Of a stretch of 36,641 nt of DNA, positions 1-36,641 are shown one piece after another (the stretch's first letter is position 1; the number at the start of each line of letters is the position of its first letter). The stretch lies in the IMG/VR virus record IMGVR_UViG_3300008114_000067, positions 1-36,641 of that record; one strand, 5' to 3'. A model generated the notes under the pieces. That model was not told the origin of the DNA. It made no database searches and saw only the letters and a list, made by a program, of their open reading frames with translations. Made by a program: the position numbers and the translations under genes. This DNA is from a virus.

Positions 1-37
1 CTAAGCGCAACCTCAATTCGCAAAAAGGAGTTCGGTA

Positions 38-628
38 ATGTTCGGAGAAGACTTCATTGAGCGCCATGCGCCCGCGCTCTTCAAGCCGCTTAACCTTGGC
101 TTCAACGTCGCTACAGTGGCGATGGCTAGGGCCGTGCTCCCTCGCGGATGGCGAGTTGAGGACTGCTATCTTTCGGCCCCTTCAAACCTGCCTGAACTTA
201 ACCGCGCTATGCGGGAGGAAGGCATGGTCGTTTGGTCCGGAGGATCAGACGAGACGATCTACGCTGATAAGGAAGTGAACTACGCTGCTCGCGCTTGGCA
301 TGACGCCGTGCACTGGCACCATCAACTCCCGTTCACTGTAGCTGGCGAGGCGGCGACCGCTTATGTCCAGATTGCCCAACTCCTCAACAGGTATGAACAT
401 GATGACGAAGTAGAGGAGTTCGCCGCCCTCATCCTGACGGAAGTTATAGGCCAGCAAATCTACAGCATCCAGCACGGGGATTTTCCGGACGATCAGCGGA
501 CATTCACTGAGTGGAACCTCGATTGCTGGCGAGGTCTCGCTGGCCGGGTGTGTATCGCCCTTGGCGATGAGCCTCTGGACCGCTACGCTCTTGACCTTGC
601 CGGCATTCACTTCGGAAAGCCCGCGTAA
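38..628 (+). CDS. Hypothetical phage protein with His-rich motif (196 aa)
   Basis: Function not recognised. The ATG has a clear ribosome binding site, AAGGAG at 25-30, seven bases upstream. The protein is soluble, with no signal peptide or membrane segment. The conspicuous part is around residues 88-105: a His-rich stretch AWHDAVHWHHQLPF followed shortly by AGE. The spacing HDxxHWHH...GE recalls small conserved proteins of unknown function in other tailed phages, and it could bind a metal, but no metallo-enzyme family can be named. It is the first of four genes that touch or nearly touch, all before the first phage promoter, so it is probably an early gene. The reading frame is convincing from its binding site and composition; the role is unknown. 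Confidence 0.85.
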   Translation: MFGEDFIERHAPALFKPLNLGFNVATVAMARAVLPRGWRVEDCYLSAPSNLPELNRAMREEGMVVWSGGSDETIYADKEVNYAARAWHDAVHWHHQLPFTVAGEAATAYVQIAQLLNRYEHDDEVEEFAALILTEVIGQQIYSIQHGDFPDDQRTFTEWNLDCWRGLAGRVCIALGDEPLDRYALDLAGIHFGKPA

Positions 629-656
629 TCCGGGTATGTCAAAAGGAAACTATCCA

Positions 657-1328
657 ATGAACACCGCGATTGAAACCCTTGTCGCTAAGTGGGCAGAGCC
701 CGACGGTATCCCGATTAAGGGCTTTCTGATCGGAGCTGACGGTTGTATGTGCGCCCAAGGGCAAGCGCTGCATTACATCGGCGGCTGGAGCCCAGAACGA
801 CTTCGTAACACGACACAAGCGTTCGCGGATATGCAGACGGGCCGTCTGCTTGGTATCAGCGTATCACATGCGATTTTGCTCCGGCTGGTTAACGACCATC
901 ACCCCGGAGCACCGTCTGTAGTTTTGACAGACCCGGCTAAGGTACTCGGGGATCAAGCCGAAACCGTGCTGGCGTTCTGGCGGCATCTTGACCGGATGAC
1001 GCCGTGGGAATGGGACACCATCCGGACCCGGACGCCGGCGGACGCCAGATTGGGCAGACCCTTCAGGAGCCCCGAACATGAAGCCCTACGGGCTAACGTA
1101 CATGACGCCAGCTTCGCCGCCGTAGGGGCAGACGCCGCAGGCAATGCATGGCAGGCTGCCGCCTCTCGGGCCGCAATAGAAATGGCGGGGCGGTCCTCGG
1201 GAGAGGCGACCAATGAAATCCAAGGCGCGCGCATCCTGCGTGAGAGCGGTCAGCCCTTCACCTTCCTGCCCATGTTCGGCTTTGCTGATCCTGAGGCTAT
1301 CCTCGCAAAGGAGGCGCAACATGACTGA
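657..1328 (+). CDS. Hypothetical phage protein (223 aa)
   Basis: Function not recognised. The start chosen is the ATG at 657 because AAGGA at 643-647 lies nine bases upstream; an in-frame ATG at 636 would add seven residues but has no such site. The N-terminal half contains a compact GADGCMCAQGQAL segment with two Cys, followed by a helical region. The middle (residues about 140-190) is Ala-rich, and the C-terminus is probably a separate short segment. It has no membrane segment. It follows the His-rich gene after 28 bases and overlaps the next gene by eight bases (ATGACTGA), so the set is probably translated from one early transcript. I cannot connect it to a known family. Confidence 0.82.
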   Translation: MNTAIETLVAKWAEPDGIPIKGFLIGADGCMCAQGQALHYIGGWSPERLRNTTQAFADMQTGRLLGISVSHAILLRLVNDHHPGAPSVVLTDPAKVLGDQAETVLAFWRHLDRMTPWEWDTIRTRTPADARLGRPFRSPEHEALRANVHDASFAAVGADAAGNAWQAAASRAAIEMAGRSSGEATNEIQGARILRESGQPFTFLPMFGFADPEAILAKEAQHD

Positions 1329-1820: not shown

Positions 1821-1824
1821 CGAA

Positions 1825-1843
1825 TTGATACCATCGGGCTCAC
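1825..1843 (+). promoter_or_regulatory. Phage RNA polymerase promoter, copy 1
   Basis: Contains TGATACCATCGGGC (1826-1839), found exactly three times in the window, each time between genes and on the coding strand. Aligned with the T7 promoter at its GGG start, it shares C at -5, A at -3, T at -2 and GGG at +1 to +3. It begins five bases after the stop of the preceding gene and about 112 bases before the next start. The likely transcription start is G1836. It would serve the middle genes, and by read-through the replication genes and the polymerase itself. Confidence 0.75.
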
Positions 1844-1865
1844 GAATTCCGACATCTCGAAAGCT

Positions 1866-3048: not shown

Positions 3049-3860
3049 TGCTCGATCCCGCAGGATGGCTAAGCAAGGCTCAAGCCCTGCCAGAAGGTAA
3101 GCGAAAGCGCACTACCCATGATTGCGGGCCGGGAACAGTCCTGATTGTAGACCACAAGGAAGCGGGCTGGGGCGCTTGGTGCCACCGATGCAACGAACCG
3201 GGATGGGTACCTAAACCTCCGGAGAACCTCTCCGAGAGGATTGAGCGCCTTCGTAAGCAGGCCATTGCAGAAGCGGAGATAGAGCGCGACTTGCGCCCGC
3301 CTATGCCTGCGAACTTCGTCCCAACCACATGGCCGCTGATCCCTAGGGTCTGGCTTTACAAGGCGGGCATATCCAACGAACGGATAATGCAATGCGGCTT
3401 CTACTATCACGAGCCGACAAAGCGCGTTGTCCTGCCTGTCACATCAGATGGCAAGCTTGTCTATTGGCAAGCGCGAGGCTTCGACAAAGACGGGACTAAG
3501 TACATCAACCCTGCGGTTGACCGTACAAAGCTAGTGGCTAAGTACGGAGCCGGTCCTGTGATCGTATTGACAGAGGATATTCTATCCGCCGTGCGGGTAG
3601 GCGAAGTTACTGAGGCTTGGTCTATCCTAGGAACATCGCTACCTGATCCTGTGTTGAACCAACTTATGCTGGCAGATAAGCCTGTCAGAGTGTGGTTAGA
3701 CCCGGATGCATCAGGCCGCAAAGGTTCGAGCAAGGCTGTTAAGGCTTTGCGAACTATCGGCATAGACGCTAAGCCGGTGTACTCAGAACGAGACCCAAAA
3801 TTTCATAGCAAAGAGGAGATAGCTTCTGTCCTTGGACTTGACCCTGCTGCGGCTCCTTAG
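3048..3860 (+). CDS. DNA primase (zinc-binding plus TOPRIM domains, 270 aa)
   Basis: Synthesises RNA primers for lagging-strand replication. Residues 24-48 form a zinc-binding module (H24xC26 with C45xxC48), which recognises the priming site in this family. A TOPRIM-type catalytic core follows: the acidic motif VLTEDILSAV (E176) and the DxD motif WLDPD (D218, D220). The length and domain order match the N-terminal half of T7 gp4; here, as in phiKMV-like phages, the helicase is a separate gene. The ATG has AAGGA five bases upstream and overlaps the preceding stop. The gene's 3' end overlaps the helicase frame by 29 bases. The assignment is firm from motifs and neighbours. Confidence 0.93.
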   Translation: MLDPAGWLSKAQALPEGKRKRTTHDCGPGTVLIVDHKEAGWGAWCHRCNEPGWVPKPPENLSERIERLRKQAIAEAEIERDLRPPMPANFVPTTWPLIPRVWLYKAGISNERIMQCGFYYHEPTKRVVLPVTSDGKLVYWQARGFDKDGTKYINPAVDRTKLVAKYGAGPVIVLTEDILSAVRVGEVTEAWSILGTSLPDPVLNQLMLADKPVRVWLDPDASGRKGSSKAVKALRTIGIDAKPVYSERDPKFHSKEEIASVLGLDPAAAP

Positions 3861-5121
3861 GACGCGCGAGCGTTACGAGAAGCTGATACGAGCAGTGCCA
3901 AAGCATGTGCTCGACATTAAGACCCAAACTATTCTGGATGACTTCGGTAAGTTCTACCGTGAATTCCCTGACGTTAATGCTTTCGGTCATGACGAGTTCT
4001 GGCTGTGGTTCAAGACGTTCGGGCATCCTAAGCTAAACGACGAAGCAAGGGCACTCTACGAAGGTTTGCTGAAAAAGATACACGAGCCTGTTCCGCCGGA
4101 AGTTGAGGCCGGTCTAATGAATAGGCTTATCGCCGCAGACACTGCCAGCAAGCTTGTAACTATCGCTGAGAAGTTCAACGATGGAGACGAGATCGACCTT
4201 CTGCCCGTCCTCCGCGCTACAGTGGAGCAATTCGAGCTGGACACAAACCGCAAGGTTAAGACCCCGTGGGTGCGTGACAGTATTGAGGATTTGCTTAAGG
4301 ACGACGAGAACGACAAGGGCTTTCATTGGAGGCTTGAGCCTCTTAACCTGTCTATGCGCCCCCTTAGACCCGGAGACTTCGGGATTGTAGCGGGACGCCC
4401 TGACAAGGGTAAGACCACGTTCCTGACGGATCAGCTAACGCACTTCGCTTTGCAGGTAGACACCCTGTTCCCCGGGGAGCAACGCTGTATCCTGTGGTTC
4501 AACAATGAAGGACCCGGCAAGCGCATTGTCTCGCGCATGTATCAGTCCGCGTTGAACGCAAGCACTTCTGAACTGGTTAAACTCAGCCAAGCTGGGACGA
4601 TCCGTCAGGAGTACCTTAAGGCTACAGGCGGTAGGCCAGACGTGTTGCGGGTGTTTGATATCCATGACTTCTGGAACCATGAGGTAGAGGATATCATCCG
4701 GTCAACGCCTCCCGCTATGATCGTGTTCGACATGGTGGACAACATCCGTTTCGGAGGTGCTGCAAACAACAATGGGCAGCGCACTGACCAGTTGCTTGAA
4801 GCCATGTACCAATGGGCGCGAGTTATCGCTGTGAAGCATGACTGCCCGGTGCTAGCTGCTAGCCAGATCAGCGCTGACGGAGAGAACCTTGCGTACCCGA
4901 CACTAGCGATGCTTAAGGACAGCAAGACCGGAAAGCAAGGTGCTGCTGACTTCATCCTGACTATCGGGGCTATAGACGATTTCCCTAACTCAAGGTATCT
5001 TGGTCTGACCAAGAACAAACTCGCCCGCGAAGGTGGGCCTAAAAACCCAAAAGCGGAGGTTATCTTTGATGGGACACGAGGACGGTACGTCGTGCCTTCC
5101 GAGTTTAATGGAGCACAATAA
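3832..5121 (+). CDS. Replicative DNA helicase, DnaB/gp4 type (429 aa)
   Basis: Hexameric 5'-3' helicase that unwinds DNA at the fork with the polymerase and primase. The RecA-like ATPase lies in the C-terminal half: Walker A GRPDKGKTT (residues 188-196, K194), Walker B MIVFDMVDN (D300), and a later ASQIS segment typical of DnaB-family motif H3. The N-terminal 150 residues are helical and correspond to the linker domain. The start is uncertain: no ATG exists near the junction, and TTG at 3832 is the first start after an in-frame stop at 3820; GAGGAG lies about 14 bases upstream, a long spacing. The frame is +1 relative to primase, so coupling or a frameshift fusion is possible. Confidence 0.93.
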   Translation: MDLTLLRLLRTRERYEKLIRAVPKHVLDIKTQTILDDFGKFYREFPDVNAFGHDEFWLWFKTFGHPKLNDEARALYEGLLKKIHEPVPPEVEAGLMNRLIAADTASKLVTIAEKFNDGDEIDLLPVLRATVEQFELDTNRKVKTPWVRDSIEDLLKDDENDKGFHWRLEPLNLSMRPLRPGDFGIVAGRPDKGKTTFLTDQLTHFALQVDTLFPGEQRCILWFNNEGPGKRIVSRMYQSALNASTSELVKLSQAGTIRQEYLKATGGRPDVLRVFDIHDFWNHEVEDIIRSTPPAMIVFDMVDNIRFGGAANNNGQRTDQLLEAMYQWARVIAVKHDCPVLAASQISADGENLAYPTLAMLKDSKTGKQGAADFILTIGAIDDFPNSRYLGLTKNKLAREGGPKNPKAEVIFDGTRGRYVVPSEFNGAQ

Positions 5122-5419: not shown

Positions 5420-7809
5420 CGTACCCTAACTACGTTGTTTGGGACTTAGAGACCACCATCCGGTCGTCGTTCAAGCGGAAAGGAAATCCTTTCGATCCGC
5501 TTAACTTCGTTGTGATGTCTGGCTACAAGGCCAGAGACTCGTTGCATGTTGGCGGCGATTACTTCGGACGTAACCCTAAGCCCCACGACTGGTTCACCAA
5601 GCTTCTTGGGGGCCACAAGCTGCTTGTCGGACAGAACATCAAGTTCGACATCTTGTACGCCCTTGCGGACCAAGAGCACGGAGAAGCTAACCTCCGCGCT
5701 TGGATGGCGTGGGTAGCTTCTGGCGGGCTGGTGTGGGATATCCAGCTTGCGGAGTACCTGCTTAAAGGCATGGACCCTGCCGAGAACATGCTGTCCCTTG
5801 ACCAACTTGCGCCTAGATACGGCGGGAACCTAAAGTTCGATGAGGTAAAGGCTTTGTGGGAGGCAGGTGTAAGCACAGAAGATATCGACCCTAACTTGCT
5901 TAGGCGGTACCTGTGTGGCACGTCCGCACAAGACGGAACTCCCTTGGACCACGGAGACATCGGCAATACAGAGCTTGTCTTTAGGGGCCAGCTTGACATC
6001 GCCCGGGCTTGCGGTCAGGTGAAGTCCATCCTGCTTAACATGGGCTCATTGCTCTGCACAATCGAGATGGAGCGCAACGGTATGGCCGTTGACGTTCAAC
6101 TCGGTATGGAGCAGGCTAAGAAGCTAGAAGAGAAGATAGCAGAGCTTAGCGTAGAGCTTTCCTCCTACCTTCCGCCAGACCTTCCGTTCGCGTTTAACTG
6201 GGGGTCATCAAGGCAGAAGTCTGCTATCATCTTCGGCGGGAAGGTCAAGTACCAAGCCCGGGAGCCCATCCTTAACGAAGATGGAACTCAGGCGTACCCG
6301 CAGGTTGACGCTACCGTGTATCTGACAGAGGATGGCGAGCAGGTTGCCGCAGACGATCCGCGCCTTGAGGATTTGGGATGGAAGACACTGAACCTTTCAA
6401 CCTTCAAGTCCGGCAAGAACGCTGGAGAGTATAAGACCAAGAAGGTAAAGGTTCCAGACCTGACCCGCCCCAAGAGCCGGTGGGCTGACTTCTACTACGA
6501 GTTTCCCGGAGTAACAGAGCCTAAGAAAGCTTGGCAAGGTGCAGTTGAGGGTGTGTACTCCACATCATCAGAAGTTATCGCCGCGCTTTCAAACAGGGGC
6601 ATTCCGTTCTTGGAGTCTTTAGGCAAGGTGACTAGCCTTACCAAAGACCTGACGACGTACTATATCTCGACGGACGACGACGGTGAAAGCAAGGGAATGC
6701 TGACGCTTGTGCAAGCAGACGGTATCATTCACCACATGCTGAACCATACGTCTACTGTGACGGCTAGGTTTAGCTCTTCAAATCCTAACTTGCAGAACCT
6801 GCCCAAAGGCGACAAGTCCGACGTTAAGAGAATGTTCCGGTCTAGGTTTCAGTCTGGAAAGATTATCCAGTCAGACTTCTCTTCTCTCGAAGTGTACATT
6901 CAGGCAATTCTAACGAACTGCAAACAGCTTATCGAAGACCTTAAGCAAGGCTTGGATATGCACTGCGTCCGCGTTAGCCAGTCTGAGGGAATACCCTACG
7001 AAGAGGCCCTTCGTCTCTGCGTTACTGAGGCTATCAAGGAATGGAAGATCAAGCGCACCAAGGCCAAGATTTTCTCCTTCCAGAGAGCTTACGGCGCAGG
7101 TGCCAGCCTTATCGCTGAACAAACCGGAATGTCTCTTGAAGAAGTAGAGGCGCTGATTGCAGCAGAGAACGAGCGCTATCCCGAAATCGAGGCGTTCTAC
7201 ACTAAGCTGACAGAGAAGATCAAGGCGAACTCTATCCCGACGAGCATGTTCGCAAATCATCCGGATATACCGGGCCTCAAGTGCAACTTCCGCAAGTCGT
7301 TCTACCGGACGCCAGACAACAAGCTGTACTCTTACAGGGAGCAACCCGCTCCGGAGTTTCTGGCTAGGCGTGGCACGTCTACTTCGTTCTCTCCTACCGA
7401 GATCAAGAACTACATCGTTCAAGGCGAAGGCGGAGAATGGGCGAAGGCTGCTATGTGGTTGGCCGTTCGCGCCTTCTACAGTCGGAAGAACTTCGACGGA
7501 CTAGCCCTGCTAGTCAATCAGGTTCATGACGCCCTTTACGCAGATGCTGATGATAGCGTTGCTATCGAGGCTGCTGCTTTGCTGGAGGCTTGTATGCTGG
7601 CAGCATCGGACTTCATGGAGTACTACTTCGCTTGGCCTTGCCCCGTGCCGGTTCCATCTGACACGACTTGGGGGCGAACCATGATGGAAGAAGAGAGAAT
7701 GCCGGAAGGCTTTAGGCCCAAGGTCGCTGCTTACAGGCAGCAACTTAGGGCGGAATACATGGCTGGGTACGTGCCATCCTTCGACGTACCTTCAATCAAG
7801 GATAAGTGA
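5416..7809 (+). CDS. Family A DNA polymerase with 3'-5' exonuclease (797 aa)
   Basis: Replicative DNA polymerase of the T7 gp5/Pol I family. The N-terminal proofreading exonuclease is seen in WDLETT (D10, E12) and GQNIKFD (about residue 75). The polymerase domain has motif A SDFSSLE (D487), motif B with K551 and the Y559-G560 pair, and motif C QVHDAL (D705), so both metal-binding aspartates are present. Its length is somewhat above T7 gp5 (704 aa); an insertion at about residues 260-365 sits between the exonuclease and the palm. The ATG overlaps the preceding stop (ATGA); an upstream GTG at 5404 would add four residues. Nearby genes supply the primase, helicase, ssDNA-binding protein and exonuclease. 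Confidence 0.96.
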   Translation: MTYPNYVVWDLETTIRSSFKRKGNPFDPLNFVVMSGYKARDSLHVGGDYFGRNPKPHDWFTKLLGGHKLLVGQNIKFDILYALADQEHGEANLRAWMAWVASGGLVWDIQLAEYLLKGMDPAENMLSLDQLAPRYGGNLKFDEVKALWEAGVSTEDIDPNLLRRYLCGTSAQDGTPLDHGDIGNTELVFRGQLDIARACGQVKSILLNMGSLLCTIEMERNGMAVDVQLGMEQAKKLEEKIAELSVELSSYLPPDLPFAFNWGSSRQKSAIIFGGKVKYQAREPILNEDGTQAYPQVDATVYLTEDGEQVAADDPRLEDLGWKTLNLSTFKSGKNAGEYKTKKVKVPDLTRPKSRWADFYYEFPGVTEPKKAWQGAVEGVYSTSSEVIAALSNRGIPFLESLGKVTSLTKDLTTYYISTDDDGESKGMLTLVQADGIIHHMLNHTSTVTARFSSSNPNLQNLPKGDKSDVKRMFRSRFQSGKIIQSDFSSLEVYIQAILTNCKQLIEDLKQGLDMHCVRVSQSEGIPYEEALRLCVTEAIKEWKIKRTKAKIFSFQRAYGAGASLIAEQTGMSLEEVEALIAAENERYPEIEAFYTKLTEKIKANSIPTSMFANHPDIPGLKCNFRKSFYRTPDNKLYSYREQPAPEFLARRGTSTSFSPTEIKNYIVQGEGGEWAKAAMWLAVRAFYSRKNFDGLALLVNQVHDALYADADDSVAIEAAALLEACMLAASDFMEYYFAWPCPVPVPSDTTWGRTMMEEERMPEGFRPKVAAYRQQLRAEYMAGYVPSFDVPSIKDK

Positions 7810-8707: not shown

Positions 8708-9727
8708 ATGGAATACGATTTCAGAGCGGCTATCGAGGCCGCTGCTAACGAGGCACCACAGCTTCGAGAAGCTCCTGTTATGGTACCCGGCTTGACGCTT
8801 CATGTGGACGGCGATTACCTCGCCTACTTCGCTAGCGGCAACGACGAGACAACCCAAGGTCAAGCCCGAACTAACGCCGTGAACCTTCTAGAAGCCGCTC
8901 GGGTGGCTGCTGGTGCAGAGCACATCGTTGTGCACAACACGGCGAAGGGATGCAACAAGGGCGAGAGGTACCTTATCGCTACAGTCAAGCCCTATCAGGC
9001 CAACCGCAAGAGCGGTGTCAAACCTAGGAACCATAGCTTCCTCCAAGATTGGCTCATGGAGTACGAGGGTGCCGGCTTCAAGGTTAAGAACTGGCTGACC
9101 CGAGAAGCTGACGACGGTATGGCCGCTTGTCTGCATCATGCCATTGGAACACCCCAAGGGTATGCCGCAATCTTTACTGCGGATAAAGACCTTAGGATGA
9201 TCCCGGGGCTGCATGTTATCTGGAAGCATGTTAACGGCTTTCGAGAAACAGTGCGGGTATCTCCCGGGTGCTTCGAGCGGATCGGACCAGGCGGTAAGAT
9301 GTATGGTACTAAGTTCTTCTGGCTTCAAATGCTAATGGGAGACACTGCCGATAACTGCCCGGGCCTTGAGGGTCACGTAGTCCTCAACGCCAAGAAGGAA
9401 GAGTACTTCAAGCCGATGGGCGAGAAGACGGCAGAGGCGTACCTTAAGGACTGTAAGACCAACGATGACGCCTACGAGGTAGTGTCCGCATTATATCGCA
9501 AGTACTACGACCGAAAGGGTGGTAATTGGGCTGACCGCTTTTGCGAGCAGGCAGCACTACTGTGGATGCGGTGCGATGCAAAGGCGCACATACTGGACTT
9601 CGCCAATCATAGTGGCCATTCGCGTATAAGCGGAAGGTTCTGCGATGAACTCCTGTCGGCGGTGGCTCGCCTTGAAAAACGAGTAACGGATGAACGCACC
9701 AAGATTAACTCATTCTCAGATAGCTGA
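8708..9727 (+). CDS. 5'-3' exonuclease, FEN/PIN family (T7 gp6-like, 339 aa)
   Basis: Degrades host DNA and removes RNA primers. The acidic metal-binding residues of the FEN family are present in order: VDGD (D34, D36), EADDG (E133, D135, D136), TADKD (D159, D161) and GDTADN (D212, D215) followed by CPG, the start of the helix-hairpin-helix DNA-binding element. The length is close to T7 gp6 (300 aa) with an extra N-terminal segment. The ATG has AAGGAG six bases upstream, directly after the UUCG hairpin. The 3' end overlaps the endonuclease VII gene by 38 bases, linking two DNA-breakdown enzymes. The assignment is firm. Confidence 0.94.
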   Translation: MEYDFRAAIEAAANEAPQLREAPVMVPGLTLHVDGDYLAYFASGNDETTQGQARTNAVNLLEAARVAAGAEHIVVHNTAKGCNKGERYLIATVKPYQANRKSGVKPRNHSFLQDWLMEYEGAGFKVKNWLTREADDGMAACLHHAIGTPQGYAAIFTADKDLRMIPGLHVIWKHVNGFRETVRVSPGCFERIGPGGKMYGTKFFWLQMLMGDTADNCPGLEGHVVLNAKKEEYFKPMGEKTAEAYLKDCKTNDDAYEVVSALYRKYYDRKGGNWADRFCEQAALLWMRCDAKAHILDFANHSGHSRISGRFCDELLSAVARLEKRVTDERTKINSFSDS

Positions 9728-10070
9728 GGTTCGCAACGCGCAGATCGCGGCACAGGGCGGCAAATGCGCTCTCTGCCAGCTTCCCGGCGTTGCTAAGGAC
9801 CCCGTGCTGGACCATCACCACGGGACAGGCGCTGTTCGCGGGACGCTTCACCGCTCTTGCAACGCGCTTCTCGGGAAGGTTGAGAACAACGCCCCTCGCT
9901 TCGGAGTTACCAATCTCCAAGCGTTCGGACATGGATTGGCGCAGTATCTCGCCAAGCATTCCACTAACATCACCGGACTGACGCATCCGACCTACAAGAC
10001 TGAGGACGAGAAGCGTATCGCGCGTAACACTAAGGCGCGTAAGGTTCGCGCTGAAAAGAAGAAAGGCTGA
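9690..10070 (+). CDS. Recombination endonuclease VII-type HNH/His-Me nuclease (126 aa)
   Basis: Resolves branched DNA such as Holliday junctions before packaging. The His-Me (beta-beta-alpha) core is plain: C26-A-L-C29 begins the zinc site, the catalytic region reads LDHHHGTGAVRG (D41, H42-H44), and LHRSCNALLG completes it. In T4 endonuclease VII the zinc is held by two CxxC pairs; here the second pair appears as H54xxC57, a variation common in phage relatives. The C-terminal tail is very basic (KARKVRAEKKKG), suited to DNA binding. The start overlaps the exonuclease by 38 bases with no strong binding site, so translation is likely coupled. The assignment is confident from the motif. Confidence 0.92.
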   Translation: MNAPRLTHSQIAEVRNAQIAAQGGKCALCQLPGVAKDPVLDHHHGTGAVRGTLHRSCNALLGKVENNAPRFGVTNLQAFGHGLAQYLAKHSTNITGLTHPTYKTEDEKRIARNTKARKVRAEKKKG

Positions 10071-12395: not shown

Positions 12396-13236
12396 GTACA
12401 TCATCCAGAAAGCAGTCGAGATTAATAAGGTAGTTAAGTCTCGTCGCCTTCGCCTTGAAGACATGGCGGTTATGTACGAGGCTCAGCCTAAGTACGACGG
12501 ATGCTGTGCTGTGATACGTGTGGACTCCGGAGAGGCATTCTCTCGTACCGGAGAGCCCAACAAAGCTCTAGGTGGGATCATACGCGAGTTGCGTACTTTC
12601 CCTCAGCTTGCCGGCACGGTGGTTATCGGAGAGGCTTGGCACCCCGACCTGCCCTTTAACGAGATCAGCGGGGCGTTCCGGAGGTTCACTGAGAGCAACA
12701 GCCTTATCCTCGTCATCCATGACGTGATCCCGGAGGCAGAGTTCCACAGGGGCTTCGACGCCACCCCCTACAGGGTCCGTATGGGCCTCACACGCGGCGT
12801 TCGTTCTCCCCGGGTACATGTGACTGCCCGGATCAATCCGGGCGACTACGGGGACCCTCAGACCGCCTGCAATGAGCTCCTCCTACGAGGGGGGTTTGAC
12901 GGCCTGATCCTCCGGGACCCTGAGGGGACTTGGACGCGCGGGAGCGGGACCACCGGAGAGATCATCAAGATCAAGCGGAAGCTGTCCTTCGACCTGCGGG
13001 TTGTAGGGACTTGGCCCGGAGAGGGCAAGCATGAAGGCCGGATAGGCTCTCTCATTGTGGACTTCCGTGGGAAGACCCTCAGGGTTGGAACCGGCCTGTC
13101 AGACGCTGATAGGGAACTTGACGACTGGATCGGACAGATCGTCGAAGTTGAGGCTATGGACTACAGTTCAGACGGCCTGCTTAGAGAGCCTAGGTTGAAG
13201 GGCCGCAGGTACGACAAACTCGAACCAGACACGTAA
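12388..13236 (+). CDS. ATP-dependent DNA ligase (282 aa)
   Basis: Seals nicks by the adenylated-lysine mechanism. Motif I is KYDGC at residues 35-39 (K35 is the expected AMP-bound lysine), followed by SRTGE (motif Ia-like), GEAW (motif III region, Glu), DGLILRDPEG (motif IV) and IIKIKRK (motif V lysines). The C-terminal 75 residues look like the OB-fold domain (a VVGTWPGEGKHEGRIGSL stretch). At 282 residues it is shorter than T7 ligase (359 aa) but has all core motifs. The start at 12388 overlaps the upstream gene by eight bases; no strong binding site is visible. A stretch around 12660-13000 is GC-richer than most neighbours. The RNA polymerase gene follows after eight bases. Confidence 0.94.
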   Translation: MAEYIIQKAVEINKVVKSRRLRLEDMAVMYEAQPKYDGCCAVIRVDSGEAFSRTGEPNKALGGIIRELRTFPQLAGTVVIGEAWHPDLPFNEISGAFRRFTESNSLILVIHDVIPEAEFHRGFDATPYRVRMGLTRGVRSPRVHVTARINPGDYGDPQTACNELLLRGGFDGLILRDPEGTWTRGSGTTGEIIKIKRKLSFDLRVVGTWPGEGKHEGRIGSLIVDFRGKTLRVGTGLSDADRELDDWIGQIVEVEAMDYSSDGLLREPRLKGRRYDKLEPDT

Positions 13237-13244: not shown

Positions 13245-15668
13245 GTGCTTACACAAGTAGAACTAGAACAGCAGATGTACGCTTTTGGTCGCTCTCGCGC
13301 TGAGAGGATGATGACCAGAAATGAGGAAGGCGGTAGGGCGAACAACAACCCTTACGCCCAAGCCATCTACAGGCGTTTCGTTCTGCCGTTGTCAGAGCTT
13401 GTCCGTGAGGATATCGCTGTCAAAAAGGCGGGTCGCCGTAAGGCACACGCAGTTCTGCTTGAAGCCCTTGACCCGGAGGCGGTCGCGTATCTCGCTGTCA
13501 GGAACACTCTGAACCTGATGATGAATGATCGTGACCCGCCTGCGGCTCGCAAGGTCGCAACAGCGGTTGGGAAGGCGTGCTATCACGAACTTCTCCTAGG
13601 ACTATTCGAGCAGGCGGACCCCGCTCTTTTCCATACGCTTGTCAATGACCTTGGCAGGCGGATGTCTAAGTCAGAGCGGCACCGCATGACCGTCTTTAAG
13701 ATGCAGGCTAAAGAGAACGGAGTACCCTTCCCTGAATGGGGGCCGGGTGGCGTCGATCAAGTCGGCGGTTATCTGCTGGACCAGCTAGAGCAGCTAGGCA
13801 TGGTAGAGACTAGGCAGGATGCTGTGCCGGGGCGAAATGGCCGGGCTGACCAAGTCAGGCAGACAATCCACATCCGTCTGACGGAGGAACTAACGGACCT
13901 TATCGGACAGATCAAGGGGCATATCGTCGAGACTACTCCCTACTACCTTCCCTGTGTAGAGCCGCCTAAAGACTGGGTCTCTATCAGCGACGGAGGCTTT
14001 CACACAAAAGCCATGCGCCGTATGCAACCGTTCGCTGTCCGTAGCTACGGCGAGAGGGACAGTTTCTATGAAGCGGACATGACTAAGCCGCTTGGAGCAA
14101 TCAACGCGCTACAGCGGGTAGCTTGGAAGATTAACGGCCCGATGCTGGACGCTATCAGGCAGGTAGCCAAGCACTTCGACATGGAAGAAATCCTGTCTCA
14201 AGCCGAGTTCCCCGCGCCTGATAAGCCGTCTTGGCTTCTTGGGGACATGACCCGCGACGATATGTCGCCGGGGCAGCTAGAAGAGTTTATCCACTGGAAG
14301 AAGGCTAAGGCCGAGTGGTTCACTCAGATGAAGCTTAGAGGCACCAAGTACGGAAGGTTCTACACAGCGACCACAGTGGCAGATAAGTTCAGGGATTTCC
14401 CTGCTATCTACTTCGTGTACTTTGCTGACTTCCGGGGACGTCTCTACGCGCAGACTACGGGAGTGTCTCCCCAAGGGTCTGATATGCAGAAGGCTCTCTT
14501 GCACTTCTCCGTGGGTAAGCCCTTAGACACTGTCGAGGCTGAACGGTGGTTCTGCATTCATGGTGCTAACAAGTGGGGATACGACAAGGTTAGCCTTGAT
14601 GACCGGGTTAAGTGGGTACATGACCGCCGGGACCTGCTTGTGCAGTTCGGCACAGACCCAATAACCTATCAGGGTTGGACAGAGGCGGACTGCCCTTTGC
14701 AGTTCCTTGCTTGGTGCATGGAGTACGCGGAGTGGGTGACTAACCCGCATACCTTCGAGAGCAGAATTCCCATCGGTATGGACGGCTCTTGCAACGGTCT
14801 GCAAAACTTCTCAGCCATGCTTCGGGACGAGGTTGGCGGCAAGGCGACGAACCTTGTTCCAGCTAGCAAGCCGAATGACATCTACCAGATGGTAGCTGAT
14901 GTCACATCTCTAAGGCTTAGGCAGGCCGCACCTGATGAAGCTGGCTTTAGGGACAGGTGGCTTGCTCACGGCATTAACCGGAAGCTGGTGAAGCGTTCCG
15001 TAATGACCTTGCCGTACGGATCAACTCGGTTCTCTTGCGCGGACTTTATCGTAGGAGACTATCTCAAGATGGGGTCCGCCCCGCAGTTTGAGAAAGAGGA
15101 GTACAGCCGCGCGGCACAGTACCTTTCGCACTTTGTGTGGGATAGCATCGGGGACGTAGTAGTTAAGGCCCGAGCGGCTATGACTTGGCTACAAGCGTCT
15201 GCCCGCACTATCATCAGGAATGGGACTGAGGTTATACGCTGGACGGTACCTTCGGGCTTTCCAGTAAGCCAAGCGTACAGCGAGCAGGCAAGCCACCGCA
15301 TTAGGACCAACCTGTGCGGTAACGCCTTCCTTCGGATTAATGTGGATACGGACACGCCAGACGCGAACCGTCACAAGAACGGGGTGGCTCCTAACTTCAT
15401 CCACTCTTACGACGCCAGTCATCTAACTCTAGTGACTGTAGCGGCTGCTGCTGAGGGAATGTCCCTCGCTATGATCCATGACGACTACGGAACCCATGCC
15501 GCAGATGCAGCTAGGCTCTATCAGTTGATACGAGAAATCTTCGTGGATATGTACGAGAGCTTCGATCCCCTTAGCGATTTTGCTGCGCTCTACGATCTGC
15601 CTACTCCGCCGGAGCGGGGTGATCTAGACCTAAGGTCGGTTATGGACAGTCCCTACTTCTTCTCATAG
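13245..15668 (+). CDS. Single-subunit DNA-dependent RNA polymerase, T7 type (807 aa)
   Basis: Transcribes middle and late genes from phage promoters. The catalytic signatures are intact: MDGSCNGLQNFSAM with D513 (T7 D537), KRSVMTLPYGS with K583 and Y591 (T7 K631, Y639, same spacing), and IHDDYGTHA with D746 (T7 D812). Just before the C-terminal APNFIHSYDASHL segment lies the region of the T7 promoter-specificity loop; its sequence differs from T7, in keeping with the different promoter found here. It is shorter than T7 polymerase (883 aa), mainly in the N-terminal domain. It starts with GTG after AAGGAG. Placement after replication genes and before structural genes is the phiKMV-like order; promoter copy 2 lies just behind it. 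Confidence 0.97.
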   Translation: MLTQVELEQQMYAFGRSRAERMMTRNEEGGRANNNPYAQAIYRRFVLPLSELVREDIAVKKAGRRKAHAVLLEALDPEAVAYLAVRNTLNLMMNDRDPPAARKVATAVGKACYHELLLGLFEQADPALFHTLVNDLGRRMSKSERHRMTVFKMQAKENGVPFPEWGPGGVDQVGGYLLDQLEQLGMVETRQDAVPGRNGRADQVRQTIHIRLTEELTDLIGQIKGHIVETTPYYLPCVEPPKDWVSISDGGFHTKAMRRMQPFAVRSYGERDSFYEADMTKPLGAINALQRVAWKINGPMLDAIRQVAKHFDMEEILSQAEFPAPDKPSWLLGDMTRDDMSPGQLEEFIHWKKAKAEWFTQMKLRGTKYGRFYTATTVADKFRDFPAIYFVYFADFRGRLYAQTTGVSPQGSDMQKALLHFSVGKPLDTVEAERWFCIHGANKWGYDKVSLDDRVKWVHDRRDLLVQFGTDPITYQGWTEADCPLQFLAWCMEYAEWVTNPHTFESRIPIGMDGSCNGLQNFSAMLRDEVGGKATNLVPASKPNDIYQMVADVTSLRLRQAAPDEAGFRDRWLAHGINRKLVKRSVMTLPYGSTRFSCADFIVGDYLKMGSAPQFEKEEYSRAAQYLSHFVWDSIGDVVVKARAAMTWLQASARTIIRNGTEVIRWTVPSGFPVSQAYSEQASHRIRTNLCGNAFLRINVDTDTPDANRHKNGVAPNFIHSYDASHLTLVTVAAAAEGMSLAMIHDDYGTHAADAARLYQLIREIFVDMYESFDPLSDFAALYDLPTPPERGDLDLRSVMDSPYFFS

Positions 15669-19350: not shown

Positions 19351-20373
19351 ATGCCTCTTTTTGACGACGCCGGCAATATTCCGGCTGCCCAGATCACCAA
19401 CCCGGCTCGTACCGTTGGTGATGCTGCGGGCACTATGAACCAGATCATCGCTGAGTACGGCGGTGTTGTGGAGCATACTATCGAGCGCCGCTCGGTTATG
19501 CAGGGTTGGGTTCCACTCCGTCCTGTTCGGGGTACTAACACTATCCAGAACTACGCCGTGGGTGAAGTGTCCCTCCAGAAGGTTATCCCCGGACAAGCTC
19601 CGGACGCCACCGTTGCGGAATTCTCCAAGGCGAACCTCGTTATCGACACCCTGATTAACGCGCGGAACACTATGGCCCTGCTGGAAACTTTCCAGACGAG
19701 CTATGATGCGCGTAAGGAAGTCGGTATTGAGCACGGTCGCCGGATCAGCAAGTTCTTCGACCAAGCCCTGTTTATTCAGGCGGCGAAGGCTTCTCAGCTT
19801 GCGCACTCGAAGTTCAACAACGGTCAAGCGGGTAAGCCTGCCGGCCACTTCGGCGGTAACGTCGTCACTCTCGGTAACGCGGGTGATCGTCAGGACCCGG
19901 CGAAGCTTTATAAGGCCATTCGCGATCTCTGCGTTCTCTTTGAGAACAAGGACGTCGTCCCGGCTCAAGACGACCTGATCCTCGCTGTCCGCCCCGAGCA
20001 GTTCTATGCTCTGGCTGACGCCGACCAGATCGTTAACGGCAACTTCCGTACTTCGGACGGTAACGACATGACCGGCGTGCCGATCTACAAGGCGCTCGGT
20101 GTTCCCGTTATCTCTAGCGTGAACATCCCGAACACGAACATCACGGCTCACGAGCTTTCCAACACCGCTAACGGTAACGCCTACAACGGCGACTTTACCA
20201 AGCTGGTTGGTCTGATGTTCTCGGCCCGGGCTCTGCTGGCTGGTGAAACCATCCCGCTGACTTCGGACGTGTTCTATGACAAGAACTACAAGATGTGGTT
20301 CGTTGACAGCCATCTGGCGTTCGGCGCTACTGCCAACCGCGCAGAGTACGCGGGCTCTATTTGGATTCCGTAA
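19351..20373 (+). CDS. Major capsid protein, T7 gp10-like (340 aa)
   Basis: HK97-fold coat protein. The length (340 against 345 aa for T7 gp10A), order after scaffold, and internal segments such as GRRISKFFDQALFIQAAK, the LILAVRPEQFYAL stretch and GVPVISSVNIPNTN are typical. Codon choice is the most biased in the window towards C-ending codons (AAC, ATC, GAC, GGT), as expected for the most abundant protein. The ATG has AAGGA upstream. A strong terminator starts 10 bases after the stop, as T-phi follows gene 10 in T7. No slippery site or in-frame extension resembling the T7 gp10B frameshift is apparent. Confidence 0.97.
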   Translation: MPLFDDAGNIPAAQITNPARTVGDAAGTMNQIIAEYGGVVEHTIERRSVMQGWVPLRPVRGTNTIQNYAVGEVSLQKVIPGQAPDATVAEFSKANLVIDTLINARNTMALLETFQTSYDARKEVGIEHGRRISKFFDQALFIQAAKASQLAHSKFNNGQAGKPAGHFGGNVVTLGNAGDRQDPAKLYKAIRDLCVLFENKDVVPAQDDLILAVRPEQFYALADADQIVNGNFRTSDGNDMTGVPIYKALGVPVISSVNIPNTNITAHELSNTANGNAYNGDFTKLVGLMFSARALLAGETIPLTSDVFYDKNYKMWFVDSHLAFGATANRAEYAGSIWIP

Positions 20374-24922: not shown

Positions 24923-27082
24923 TTGGCACTAGGTGATCCACGCGAGCAGTTCGCAGGGCAAGACCCGCGACAAAACTTGCGCATGGGCGTTAGTCAATCC
25001 GGTGGCGGAGTAGTTAGGGCTACTCCGCTCACTGATACGTACAATGACAACTCTATCCCGGAGTTCCTTGGTAGGCTGGTAGAGCCTTACATCAAGCGCA
25101 AGCAAGACGAGGCTTTCTACAACGGCTATATGGCGCAACAAGCCGCTGGTGCGGAAGTTGAAGCTATCGACGACGGAGGCCCGATCTCTAAGATTTGGGG
25201 TCCTGATGGCTACAGAGAAGGGGCGGCTTTCTACCGCGGTAACGCTCTAGTTACTAAGCAGGTAAGGAGCTATCTCGAAGATGTGGACAATCTTAAAAGG
25301 CTGCCTCCAGAGGAGCTTTCTAGGAAGTTTGCGGAAGACAGCCAAAAGCTGCTAACTGGTAACGATTGGACTGACGCCATTGTCCAGAAGCAGATGATGG
25401 AGCAGATGGGACCTGCTATCAACACCGTTCTCAAAGCCCGCTTTGAATGGCAGCAAGAGCAGGGTGTCGAAGCACAGGTTGAAGCTATAGCCGGTCAAGC
25501 CGGGCTTATGCAGAAGCTATATGTGGATCAGGCCCGTACCACGGAACCGTCTCAAGAACTAACCCAAGCCATTGTGCAGGGGGAAGAACAGTTCTTGGGT
25601 ACCCTGCCTATCCCGTATGGGCAGACTTCTTCTAGCTACAAAAAGGCCCTTGGCCTCGCCTCTAGGCGGATGCTTCGAGAGGGAAACTTCTACGCCTTTG
25701 AGGCGATGAAGGGCCGGGGCCTTCTCGATCTAATGGACGAGAAGGACGCCGCCGCTATCGAGAAAGCCTACGTTTCCGAAGGCGGTCGGGCTATCGAACA
25801 GGCCCGCTTCCAACTCCTGCCTCAAATCCTCGCTCTTAAAGAGGATGTGAAGTTCGAGAGGATCAGTCCGAATGCGGCGGCGGCTAGGTACCACGCTCTT
25901 AACGAGGCGGCTAGAAAGCTGACCGGCGTTAGGGACGTCGAACTGTTTGACGCCAAGGCGATTGAGGGTGGGGCTACAGACGTGATCGAATTGACACGTC
26001 AGACCGCCCTGAGGAACCAAGCCCGTCTGGACGCCATTGCAGACCGGGAGGCGAATTGGGCTCACGAAGAGCGCATGGTCCGGGAGAAGGCGGCGGCTGA
26101 GGCCGCAGTCGCCCAGACGGTATGGGCCAGCGGCGACATCAACGACGCGCTCATCAAGAAGCAAGTCGAGCCGTGGCAGATGGACGCCGTCGCCCACGAG
26201 GCGGTCAAGGCGGGGCGGGCAGAGGACCTTGCCCGGGTGTTCGTGACCAGTCGCGGGTGGCATTCCGGCAAGGTCGCGGAGCAGCTTCAATCCGGGGTCA
26301 CGACCAGCCTCACAGAAGGCTGGACCGACGAGACCGCCCGAACCTTCGACACTTGGAAGAAGCTGAACGACGTGAATGGCGGCGCTGCTGCTACGTACTT
26401 CGGGGACCAGTACCACACGGCGCTGTCTCACATGGACGACATGATCCAGACGGGTATGAACCCGGCGCTAGCTTGGACACGAGCCTTTGGGAACGTGACT
26501 GCCTACGATCAATCCATGCTTCGACAAGAGGACAGGAAAGAAGCCCGGGCGGCTGTTAAAGACGAGCTTAAGCGCATTGACGGCGGCTTCCTAGGTATCG
26601 GAAACGCAGAACTGTCTGACAGCGCAGAGGTTGTCATCTCTCGTACTATCGAGGGATACGTGGCTGTAAATCGTAAGTACGGTTCAGCAAGCGTTTCATC
26701 GCTGGCTAAACAGGGATACGATAAAGCTATCGCTACAGGTAAGCTTGAGCACTACGGAAGGTTTGCTTGGAACAATCCCAAGGGAACTCAGCCGTTGTGG
26801 CAGGCGACCGGAATTCAGGCTGACGCTTTCGGTAAGGTGTTCAACTCCGAAGTTGACGAGCGCTTCAAAGCAATGGGCGTTGGTCGCCTTAGGGAGTACG
26901 ATATCGCCCGTCAGGGTAGCCAAGTCTTTATCGCCGGTATCGACGGTGATGGAGAGACCAAGCTTATCACCTTTACAGTGAAAGACTTGGAGAGGCGTAA
27001 AGAACAGATGATCCGAAGCAAGGTTCTAAAGGGTTCTAGTGCGCCTACCGATTGGGGAGTCATTCCTCGCGGGAATAAATAA
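24923..27082 (+). CDS. Internal virion (ejection) protein, T7 gp15-like (719 aa, TTG start)
   Basis: Second ejection protein; T7 gp15 (747 aa) forms the hexameric trans-periplasmic tube with gp16. The length and position match. The TTG start is supported by GGAGG at 24911-24915, seven bases upstream. The N-terminus contains GQDPRQNLRMGVSQSGGG, then SIPEFLGRLVEPYIKRKQDEA, a pattern typical of this family. The rest is mostly alpha-helical with many Glu, Arg, Ala and Gln. Bases about 26030-26400 (residues about 370-490) are much richer in GC than the flanks: line 26161-26220 counts to 75% GC against about 47% in 26641-26700. A hairpin follows the stop. Confidence 0.93.
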   Translation: MALGDPREQFAGQDPRQNLRMGVSQSGGGVVRATPLTDTYNDNSIPEFLGRLVEPYIKRKQDEAFYNGYMAQQAAGAEVEAIDDGGPISKIWGPDGYREGAAFYRGNALVTKQVRSYLEDVDNLKRLPPEELSRKFAEDSQKLLTGNDWTDAIVQKQMMEQMGPAINTVLKARFEWQQEQGVEAQVEAIAGQAGLMQKLYVDQARTTEPSQELTQAIVQGEEQFLGTLPIPYGQTSSSYKKALGLASRRMLREGNFYAFEAMKGRGLLDLMDEKDAAAIEKAYVSEGGRAIEQARFQLLPQILALKEDVKFERISPNAAAARYHALNEAARKLTGVRDVELFDAKAIEGGATDVIELTRQTALRNQARLDAIADREANWAHEERMVREKAAAEAAVAQTVWASGDINDALIKKQVEPWQMDAVAHEAVKAGRAEDLARVFVTSRGWHSGKVAEQLQSGVTTSLTEGWTDETARTFDTWKKLNDVNGGAAATYFGDQYHTALSHMDDMIQTGMNPALAWTRAFGNVTAYDQSMLRQEDRKEARAAVKDELKRIDGGFLGIGNAELSDSAEVVISRTIEGYVAVNRKYGSASVSSLAKQGYDKAIATGKLEHYGRFAWNNPKGTQPLWQATGIQADAFGKVFNSEVDERFKAMGVGRLREYDIARQGSQVFIAGIDGDGETKLITFTVKDLERRKEQMIRSKVLKGSSAPTDWGVIPRGNK

Positions 27083-34055: not shown

Positions 34056-34385
34056 ATGGCTGCTAATGAAGGCAAGCTGAGTGACCTTCACGAGAAAGTC
34101 GCTCACGTACTGTCAGAGGCCCTCAATGGGCAGGAACTGCCGGGAGAGATCGACGAGGAAACCGGAGAGGTCAGGGTAATCAAAATTCCCCCTTCTGCTG
34201 CTATCCTTCAAGTCGCGGCTAAGTTCCTCAAGGACAACAACATCACCTGTGCTCCTAGCGAAGACAACGCTATGGGAGAACTCAAAGCAAAGATGGAAGC
34301 TAGGGCTAAGGCCCGAGAACTCCGGAAGTCAGACGTTGTGTATGCTTCCGAAGATATGAGCTTCCTAACGGGCCTGCCTAACTAA
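34056..34385 (+). CDS. terS: Small terminase subunit, T7 gp18-like (109 aa)
   Basis: DNA maturase A; binds viral DNA and guides the large terminase to concatemers. The length is near T7 gp18 (89 aa), and it precedes the large terminase with a one-base overlap (TAATG). The sequence is helical with an acidic middle (the GEIDEETGEV segment) and the conserved-looking PSAAILQVAAKFLKDNNI, then a basic helix (ELKAKMEARAKARELRK). It starts at ATG 34056, four bases after the holin stop; only a poor AAAGA site is visible. The assignment rests on position, length and helical pattern. Confidence 0.9.
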   Translation: MAANEGKLSDLHEKVAHVLSEALNGQELPGEIDEETGEVRVIKIPPSAAILQVAAKFLKDNNITCAPSEDNAMGELKAKMEARAKARELRKSDVVYASEDMSFLTGLPN

Positions 34386-36172
34386 TGGCTAGCCGGGAGA
34401 GCGCCGAGGCTGCTCTTAAGCGTTGGAAGCAACTTGAGCTTCTACAGCAAGAGTACCGAAGCTTCGGCACATTCCTAGAGGACGCGATGGCGCACCTTGG
34501 GTTCCCTACGAGCCCGGTGCAATTCGACATTGGGAACTTCTTGGCTCACGGGCCACAGTACTCAATGATCCAAGCCCAGCGGGGCCAAGCTAAGACCACG
34601 ATCACTGCGGCGTTCGCAGTGTGGACGCTCATTCACGAGCCGCGTTCCCGAGTGCTAATCCTCTCGGCAGGCGGCACACAAGCGAATGAAATCTCCACAC
34701 TGATCGTTCGCCTCATCATGACTATGGAAGGCTTGGAATGTCTGCACCCTGATCCGACTAACGGGGACAGGACGAGCGTTGAAGCGTTCGACGTGCATTA
34801 CAGCCTCAAGGGTGTGGACAAGTCTCCTAGCGTGGCCTGCGTCGGTATTACCGGCAACCTCCAAGGTAAGCGGGCTGACCTCCTTATCGCAGACGATATC
34901 GAGAGTACGAAAAATTCTCGTACAGCGAACATGCGGGAACTCCTGCTGGACCTTACGAGGGACTTCACGTCTATCTGCGCCACGGGCCGCATTGTGTATC
35001 TCGGGACCCCTCAGTCTCAAGAGAGCATTTACAACACATTGCCGGCACGGGGCTTTACCGTCCGTATCTGGCCGGGCCGGTTTCCAAGCCCGGAGCAAAT
35101 CGAGAACTACGGAGACATGCTTGCTCCGTTTATCTCTCGGGCTCTAAAGGCAAATCCGGCTCTCGCATTTCGTGGCGGGATGCTAGGGGATCAGGGTCAG
35201 CCTATTGACCCCGGTTACATGAGCGAGGAAATCCTCCAGAAGAAAGAGCTAGACCAAGGCCCTACCTACTTCCAACTCCAGCACATGCTGAATACGAAGC
35301 TGGCGGACGCCGCGCGGTTCCCGCTCAAAGTGGAGCAACTCGTTGTCATGCCCCTAGGTAAGACAGAGTACTTCCCGCTTAAGGTTATCCGTGGGATGAC
35401 CGAAGGCAGCCTTAAAGCATATAGCGTCGGGACCGTCACATTTAAGATGGCCACCCCGCACGTCGGAAGCTCTGATGAGCCAAACGACGTGGCTAAGCTT
35501 CAAGGTATCTGCATGTATGTTGACCCTGCGGGCGGCGGAAAGAACGCCGACGAGACCGGGTATGCTGTTACAGGTTTCCTTAACGGAAACGTGTACTGGC
35601 TTGCATCGGGGGGTCTTCCGGGAGGGTACTCTGTCGAAGTTTTGGAGCGGCTGGCTAAGGTCGCTGCCGACTGGAAAGTCAATGTTGTAAAGATCGAGAA
35701 GAACATGGGTTACGGTGCGTTCCGTGAAGTGTGGCTTCCGATCCTTAGGAAACAGCATCCTACAACCTCCGTCGAAGACGACATGGTTTCAGGACAGAAA
35801 GAACTACGGATCATCGAAACCCTAGAGCCGGTTATCGCTCGCGGGTCGCTAATCGTAAACCAAGACATTGTGGATATGGACCGCGAGTGTTGCGATAGAC
35901 ACGAGATGTCTAAGCGCGCTCTATACAGCGTGTTCCATCAGATGTCTAAGATCACGCGCGAACGCAACGCGCTGATCCATGATGACCGACTGGACGCCCT
36001 TGAAGGGGCTGTCCGACATTGGGTCGCTCAGCTTGCTATCGACCAGCAACGTGCCGTCGAACAAGCACGGGCTCGTGAGCTAGCTGAGACTTTGAAAGAC
36101 CCATTAGGCCACCGACGTTATGACCCTCCGGGTCGCCGTGGTGGTTCCCTCTTTGACAAATATAGGAGATAA
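34385..36172 (+). CDS. terL: Large terminase subunit, T7 gp19-like (595 aa)
   Basis: DNA maturase B; packaging ATPase and nuclease. The ATPase domain has Walker A QAQRGQAKTT (residues 63-72) and Walker B LLIADDIES (about 165-173). The RNase H-like nuclease domain follows: VDPAGGGKNADETGYAV (first metal Asp near residue 380), VKIEKNMGYG (Glu), and HDDRLDALEGAV near residue 535 (third acidic site). The length is close to T7 gp19 (586 aa). The C-terminus is basic and Gly-rich (RRYDPPGRRGG). Translation overlaps the small subunit by one base. The assignment is firm. Confidence 0.97.
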   Translation: MASRESAEAALKRWKQLELLQQEYRSFGTFLEDAMAHLGFPTSPVQFDIGNFLAHGPQYSMIQAQRGQAKTTITAAFAVWTLIHEPRSRVLILSAGGTQANEISTLIVRLIMTMEGLECLHPDPTNGDRTSVEAFDVHYSLKGVDKSPSVACVGITGNLQGKRADLLIADDIESTKNSRTANMRELLLDLTRDFTSICATGRIVYLGTPQSQESIYNTLPARGFTVRIWPGRFPSPEQIENYGDMLAPFISRALKANPALAFRGGMLGDQGQPIDPGYMSEEILQKKELDQGPTYFQLQHMLNTKLADAARFPLKVEQLVVMPLGKTEYFPLKVIRGMTEGSLKAYSVGTVTFKMATPHVGSSDEPNDVAKLQGICMYVDPAGGGKNADETGYAVTGFLNGNVYWLASGGLPGGYSVEVLERLAKVAADWKVNVVKIEKNMGYGAFREVWLPILRKQHPTTSVEDDMVSGQKELRIIETLEPVIARGSLIVNQDIVDMDRECCDRHEMSKRALYSVFHQMSKITRERNALIHDDRLDALEGAVRHWVAQLAIDQQRAVEQARARELAETLKDPLGHRRYDPPGRRGGSLFDKYRR

Positions 36173-36177
36173 CAGGT

Positions 36178-36414
36178 ATGCAAGCTTTCTCTCTCCCTTC
36201 CCCGAACATCGGCGGACAGGGGCATCACCTGCGCCGGATCGCGGCCAAAGCGATTAGCTACATCGAAACCTCTGCCCCGTCTTACACGGGTGGCGTGGGT
36301 GTGGCTGAGAGGCATCCGTCTGCCGACGAACTCGAAGCGTTCTTCCTCGCCTGCGCGGCGGCTGTTACGCCCTTCAAGCTGGCTACGCCTGTCACTGGCG
36401 AGACTGGCACGTAA
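36178..36414 (+). CDS. Small hypothetical protein after terminase (78 aa)
   Basis: Function not recognised. The ATG has AGGAG about nine bases upstream and starts five bases after the terminase stop. The protein begins MQAFSLPSPNIGGQGHHLRR; it has a helical N-terminal half, a Gly-rich centre and a second helix DELEAFFLACAAAV, with no membrane span. Its stop overlaps the next gene as TAATG. In phiKMV-like phages lysis genes follow the terminase, but this protein shows neither holin nor endolysin features. Its pairing with the beta-rich next gene suggests a small virion protein. Confidence 0.8.
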   Translation: MQAFSLPSPNIGGQGHHLRRIAAKAISYIETSAPSYTGGVGVAERHPSADELEAFFLACAAAVTPFKLATPVTGETGT

Positions 36415-36641
36415 TGCAAAACGTTTCCGTAGTTCCCGCTGTAACGCGAACGTCAGTAGGAGACATGTTTGTTCTGGACGTGAGCGACAGGGAAGCTGTC
36501 CTTGTCAACATCACGTCTATCGGCGGTGGCGGTACCCTTGTCTTTGAGGGTACCATCGACAACACAAACTGGTTTTCTGTTCTCGCTGCGCCTATGGGCG
36601 CAACGGGTGGCGTTACTTCTACTACCGCAGTCGGGGCGTTT
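36414..36641 (+). CDS. Partial virion-type beta protein at the window end (at least 76 aa)
   Basis: The frame opens at ATG 36414, overlapping the preceding stop, and is cut by the window edge with no stop. Visible residues are beta-rich: VSVVPAVTRTSVGDMFVLDV, then AVLVNITSIGGGGTLVFEGT followed by IDNTNWFSVLAAP. The phrase (hydrophobic)EGT-(I/L)D-x-x-N-W is common in phage surface and fibre-associated proteins with an Ig or jelly-roll-like domain. It lies after the terminase, away from the fibre genes. A capsid decoration or second adsorption protein is likely by inference; the full length is unknown. Confidence 0.72.
   Translation, partial: MQNVSVVPAVTRTSVGDMFVLDVSDREAVLVNITSIGGGGTLVFEGTIDNTNWFSVLAAPMGATGGVTSTTAVGAF

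Follow-up and report, generated by a model that had tools for sequence, protein, structure and literature searches.

Depletion of GANTC, the target of the alphaproteobacterial adenine methyltransferase CcrM, has been described for roughly half of the pelagiphages, most of them Autographivirinae, where it is clustered on the phage tree; its cause was left open (Seong et al. 2022, Microbiome 10:157, PMC9516812). An older case, as relayed in PMC5014478, is the counterselection of GATC in enterobacteriophages (McClelland 1984; Deschavanne & Radman 1991), for which that account gives MutH cleavage of under-methylated GATC as one proposed cause (Deschavanne & Radman 1991). Other phages encode CcrM-like GANTC methyltransferases of their own: vB_OspM_OC (protein p213), pCB2051-A, DSS3-P1, and phiLM21 (PMC7139368, PMC5537653). 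The specificity of p213 was shown experimentally (PMC7139368). Here we analyze a 36,641-nucleotide stretch, IMG/VR record IMGVR_UViG_3300008114_000067 (the window), which is an incomplete T7-like phage genome nearly free of GANTC.

The window joins the published kind: as in the pelagiphages (PMC9516812), the word is GANTC, the phage group is the same, and the hosts are probably CcrM-bearing Alphaproteobacteria. It differs in belonging to a separate freshwater and soil lineage, of Caulobacterales and Sphingomonadales phages, and the comparison also takes in phages of Rhodobacterales and Hyphomicrobiales.

A first-pass annotation, made from the letters alone, had counted nine GANTC sites and proposed that an alphaproteobacterial host, not base composition, was responsible. 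Recounting gave exactly nine, each at the position reported. Expectation is 140 from base composition, and 157, 122, or 97 from first-order, second-order, or maximum-order Markov models, for observed-to-expected ratios of 0.06–0.09 (0.07 against about 122) and Poisson P of about 1e-40 to 1e-30. GANTC is the most depleted of the 256 words of form XYNZW, the next lowest standing at 0.64; no other XYNyx palindrome falls below 0.65, and the four-base palindromes, GATC (143 observed) among them, occur about as often as expected. Similar pentamers are thus not equally depleted, and the shortage is specific to GANTC, as the annotation had supposed.

Coding constraint does not account for it either. 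Synonymous-codon shuffling of the well-supported genes (31.6 kb) yielded 87.8±7.3 sites against the nine observed (z −10.8), and the lowest count among 1000 shuffles was 65; with protein and codon usage both preserved, selection must therefore act on the sequence itself. Its trace is visible in codon choice: serine codons TCN and AGY stand at 5:48 after Asp or Glu, versus 411:172 elsewhere in the window (P 9e-19), and NTC codons make up three of 44 following an xGA codon, versus 925 of 2420 elsewhere (P 5e-6). In depleted genomes each of the 12 words that differ from GANTC by one base is slightly raised, and to much the same degree; this even rise fits selection against the word and disfavours mutational bias. 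The depletion is selection at the synonymous level, free of any bias in the mutations by which sites are escaped.

The trait follows both phage lineage and host class. In the window's clade, isolates carry zero to three sites per 42–45 kb: none in the whole genomes of KSC, Percy, Cd1, Brevundimonas phage AA, and Babayka (111–131 expected); three of 136 in Lullwater; one of 128 in Sphingomonas phage Scott. Relatives infecting Xanthomonas, Stenotrophomonas, Burkholderia, and Pseudomonas have ratios of 0.77–0.92, and a Vibrio T7-like relative is likewise undepleted (114 sites versus 108 expected). Among 80 uncultured relatives the ratio is bimodal. In the RNA polymerase tree, all 32 rows of the window's clade (support 98) are depleted and the clade is sister to the undepleted gamma- and betaproteobacterial phages; two rows on long branches, MedPE-C56 and HTVC011P, show depletion of their own outside it. 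One low-site fragment outside the clade, L093 (two of 12), is too short to weigh. A further relative, L010, whose large terminase subunit is 59% identical to the window's, has GANTC enriched 1.5-fold (36 versus 23), at the top of the 256 words.

A second T7-like lineage repeats the pattern to varying depth: Paracoccus phage ParMal1 has one site of 121 expected, Bradyrhizobium phage Paso four of 110, Stappia phage SI01 six of 124, Agrobacterium phage Atu_ph02 14 of 110, and a Rhizobium phage 32 of 110. The pelagiphages HTVC019P and HTVC011P have one of 71 and one of 85. GANTC depletion is thus present in nearly all alphaproteobacterial T7-like phages examined. The sole exception across both lineages is Aquamicrobium phage P14, with 152 sites against 143 expected. 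Besides Aquamicrobium, P14 is described as infecting a betaproteobacterial strain of the Alcaligenaceae (PMC5295034), and a broad host range, not confined to CcrM-bearing hosts, is the better explanation for its normal count; no phage-encoded methyltransferase was found that could provide another.

The sites that remain are skewed at the central base. Across the window's clade, GAWTC (central A or T) stands at 10 of 446 expected and GASTC (central C or G) at 87 of 453 (P 1.6e-16). The skew recurs in single complete genomes: L045 (GAWTC one of 72, GASTC 30 of 62), L049 (zero of 52, 23 of 83), and L055 (one of 71, 15 of 67). It recurs also in the unrelated Caulobacter siphophage Sansa (10 of 96 versus 56 of 96) and in RHEph08 (eight of 63 versus 24 of 47); Atu_ph02 shows no skew, and Ochrobactrum phage OH leans the opposite way. 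This distribution suggests that the agents responsible differ by lineage in their central-base preference.

Host DNA and methyltransferase-carrying phages provide two further comparisons. CcrM was found in all six alphaproteobacterial genomes checked and is widespread in a 249-genome phylum sample. Measured over 80 stretches of host DNA surrounding ccrM, GANTC ratios are 0.50 for Caulobacterales (GAWTC 0.49, GASTC 0.50), 0.34 for Hyphomicrobiales, and 0.36 for Rhodobacterales; host DNA lacks the central-base skew in Caulobacterales and Hyphomicrobiales, and leans the same way as the phages in the thinly sampled Rhodospirillales and Sphingomonadales. GANTC density is higher in phages that carry their own enzyme. 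Five alphaproteobacterial phages with a GANTC-type methyltransferase, assigned by homology to the p213-type enzyme, have ratios of 0.70, 0.71, 0.91, 0.92, and 1.06 (pooled 0.89). Non-T7-like alphaproteobacterial phages in which no PF01555 methyltransferase was detected have 0.44 (phiCbK, which is the host level), 0.34 (Sansa), 0.19 (OH), and 0.43 (SIO1), pooled 0.37. No GANTC-type methyltransferase was found in any T7-like phage examined here.

These results suggest a model in which GANTC left unmethylated by CcrM would be damaged in alphaproteobacterial hosts, placing the phage lineage under strong purifying selection against the word. A restriction-like or methyl-directed nuclease would cut incoming or freshly replicated phage DNA and spare the CcrM-methylated host chromosome; a small, fast T7-like phage with no methyltransferase would escape through near-absence of sites, and larger phages through a GANTC methyltransferase of their own. 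Avoidance of such damage is the best explanation we can offer, although we hold it with about as much doubt as conviction. That methyltransferase carriers keep 0.70–1.06 of the expected sites makes the unmethylated site, rather than the methylated one, the likelier hazard; the damage, we infer, would be cleavage. More doubtful is the wider proposition that one or more putative defence or repair nucleases throughout the Alphaproteobacteria attack unmethylated GANTC (GAWTC most, in some lineages) and recognize self by its CcrM methylation, which would make them a functional counterpart of MutH and Dam in a class that lacks MutH.

Several observations weigh against this model. A search of hosts by way of CcrM-like methyltransferases found no GANTC-specific nuclease. 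Its one candidate family, a PD-(D/E)XK protein of about 180 residues encoded beside a CcrM-like methyltransferase (L217, 2429 to 3894, with the PD-(D/E)XK protein at 3343 to 3894; L210, 1869 to 3266; L219–L223), has a GG[IA]GG-x-T-x-TG motif and no match in NCBIfam or PADLOC; the pair occurs in six of 385 alphaproteobacterial genomes, all small, three of which also encode a full-length CcrM. Caulobacter vibrioides CB15 is reported to lack type II restriction-modification systems (PMC11053796), and phages isolated on CB15 rank among the cleanest of GANTC; SAR11 is likewise reported to have no restriction-modification (PMC9516812). It follows that the enzyme sits in past or other hosts, or else that the agent is something other than classical restriction. 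The methyltransferase contrast comprises five phages, some of them related, from different phage families, and so is phylogenetically confounded; and phiCbK and Sansa, at 0.44 and 0.34, infect Caulobacter with no PF01555 methyltransferase detected. MutH was rejected as the agent: it is present in two of 190 alphaproteobacterial genomes (both small), so that the agent must differ from it. When a HinfI-like enzyme was sought through the CcrM-like methyltransferases, the plasmid matches examined were DpnII-type systems and the genome matches either DpnII-type systems or the methyltransferase–PD-(D/E)XK pair that is rare in Alphaproteobacteria.

Other explanations draw on parts of the same evidence. 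Classical restriction alone would be a narrow form of the damage model: particular type II enzymes of the HinfI or TfiI kind would be common in the accessory genomes of wild Alphaproteobacteria, where CcrM protection of the chromosome would make them harmless, and would drive the avoidance. Enzymes of differing specificity would suit a skew toward GAWTC avoidance in the window's clade, Sansa, and RHEph08 that is reversed in OH and absent from Atu_ph02. The group avoids other palindromes too, and in P14 (L027) the most depleted word is CTNAG (14 against 121 expected), which suggests a DdeI-like enzyme in its hosts. Yet no cognate enzyme was found, the sole candidate family is rare, and the reports on CB15 and SAR11 stand against it; restriction of this kind as the whole cause is unlikely. 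Regulatory interference seems improbable to a similar degree. Here the CcrM-methylated phage site would bind GcrA with host RNA polymerase, or other readers, and disturb the phage programme; that GcrA binds methylated GANTC is established in the literature (PMC3667746), and an agent as universal as CcrM fits a class-wide pattern better than does any one restriction enzyme. Carriers of GANTC-type methyltransferases nevertheless keep many sites, which disfavours an effect of the methylated site; phiCbK has a host-like density; and the depletion extends throughout coding sequence instead of being confined to promoter regions. The GcrA promoter motif is YGAKTCG, which the GAWTC/GASTC skew does not fit.

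It is very unlikely that the phage avoids GANTC as protection from a nuclease of its own that cuts the word in host DNA. T7-like phages do degrade host DNA, and exonucleases and an endonuclease VII homologue are encoded in the window, but no annotated gene is common to all depleted relatives and absent from all undepleted ones; those families that only the depleted set has are shadow frames on the opposite strand. Endonuclease VII is present in all 13 phages compared, undepleted ones included, and so is not the cause; moreover, a phage nuclease would not account for depletion that tracks the host in siphophages like Sansa. Adaptation to host composition, codon or protein constraint, and mutation bias together can be given almost no credence. 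Host DNA is itself depleted (0.3–0.5), but the T7-like phages, at 0–0.1, lie far below it, so mimicry of the host fails; the Markov controls and the synonymous shuffle rule out composition and constraint, the equal rise of the 12 neighbours rules out mutation bias, and the skew is absent from host DNA.

All nine residual sites lie inside coding sequence:
5536 to 5540, GACTC, DNA polymerase gene, in-frame Asp-Ser codons
6613 to 6617, GAGTC, DNA polymerase gene, Glu-Ser codons; also in L041
11405 to 11409, GAGTC, MazG-like gene; common to four near-identical contigs
12523 to 12527, GACTC, DNA ligase gene; common to four near-identical contigs
16565 to 16569, GAGTC, hypothetical gene 16346 to 16987; common to three contigs
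20364 to 20368, GATTC, the window's sole GAWTC site, final codons of the major capsid gene; GATCC in L041 and L051
27057 to 27061, GAGTC, end of internal virion protein gene 24923 to 27082; GAGTA (lost) in L006
28182 to 28186, GAGTC, large internal virion protein gene; GAGTA (lost) in L002 and L006
29702 to 29706, GAGTC, large internal virion protein gene; common to four contigs

Some near-identical contigs, then, lack the site at 20364, 27057, or 28182, and two contigs have an extra site at 11614. Of what the first-pass annotation had proposed, a phage selected against GANTC, with the trait following alphaproteobacterial hosts, held up; its suggestion that the remaining sites might matter functionally did not, in that mapping of codon position and conservation gave no sign of function. 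With three sites lost and one gained among near-identical contigs, they look like leftovers of mutation and selection.

Gene order and content place the window in the Autographivirales, as a Percyvirus- or Lullwatervirus-like phage: the RNA polymerase gene follows that for DNA ligase, the structural genes are T7-like, and a single strand is coding. Features of orientation are:
1 to 36641, the window, incomplete T7-like phage genome, GANTC ratio 0.07 throughout
9690 to 10070, plus strand, endonuclease VII-like protein, the main endonuclease named from sequence
13245 to 15668, plus strand, T7-type single-subunit RNA polymerase, 73% identical to that of Caulobacter phage KSC, which places the phage
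34385 to 36172, plus strand, terminase large subunit

The plus-strand genes encode primase, helicase, DNA polymerase, exonuclease, endonuclease VII, a second exonuclease/metallophosphatase, and a MazG-like protein; further genes on that strand encode ligase, the RNA polymerase, portal, scaffold, capsid, tail and internal virion proteins, and terminases. Several early genes, at 38 to 2921, either have no PHROG match or match just families whose function is not known. Among annotated RNA polymerases, the Caulobacter phages KSC and Percy supply the nearest matches (72–73%), followed by Brevundimonas and Sphingomonas phages, so the host is probably a member of the Caulobacterales. Contig L001 (10876 to 16235) links the window's end to its start through about 5.36 kb absent from the window, giving a full genome of about 42 kb. 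The missing segment is the part that carries lysis genes in relatives; in L001 it adds three GANTC sites, all GASTC.

Avoidance in the wider group is not limited to GANTC. Six-base palindromes, CTCGAG among those avoided, stand at 0.2–0.6 of expectation across the T7-like group, so restriction avoidance appears to be a general habit of these phages. (The ratio is about 0.2 in L023, L024, and L026, that is, Cd1, AA, and Scott, versus 0.5 in the window and 0.54 in KSC.) Vibrio T7-like phage 1.204.O (L126, NC_048123) offers the Dam counterpart, with one GATC against about 118 expected and normal GANTC; L286, L288, L315, L317, and L280 are GATC-depleted too. Mutual exclusion of GANTC depletion and GATC depletion (one locus with both, against 46 and five) is suggestive, not significant. 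Pelagiphages HTVC011P (L034) and HTVC019P (L118), whose hosts are reported to have no restriction-modification, contain zero GATC (about 80 expected) and zero CCNGG and GGNCC. In L290, an uncultured T7-like phage contig, GATC is enriched fourfold (387 versus 92, first-order model).

Against this background the window's avoidance resembles, and departs from, each of the described systems. As with GATC in enterobacteriophages, phages that lack their own enzyme would be avoiding the word that a solitary adenine methyltransferase of the host modifies; unlike that case, partly ascribed to MutH, the Alphaproteobacteria need another agent. The low counts of six-base palindromes, and the many T7-like phages that have no methyltransferase, recall palindrome avoidance in lytic phages, but no cognate GANTC restriction enzyme was found in these hosts. 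Methyltransferase-carrying phages face the same host mark with the opposite solution, their sites protected instead of deleted. GANTC depletion in Autographivirinae pelagiphages is already published (PMC9516812); what is added here is the class-wide spread with its gamma- and betaproteobacterial control, the explanation of P14, the methyltransferase contrast, and the skew of residual sites to GASTC, all of them apparently new, as no earlier report of the spread, the P14 explanation, the contrast, or the skew was found in the open-access papers searched.

Whatever agent is proposed must reproduce the stronger avoidance of GAWTC than of GASTC, which serves as its fingerprint. For uncultured T7-like phages, GANTC density offers a means of assignment to alphaproteobacterial hosts. 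CcrM is usually viewed as a regulator of the cell cycle and of transcription. Class-wide loss of its target from T7-like phages, relaxed in phages that bring their own methyltransferase, suggests that the CcrM mark also serves as a signal of self and non-self.

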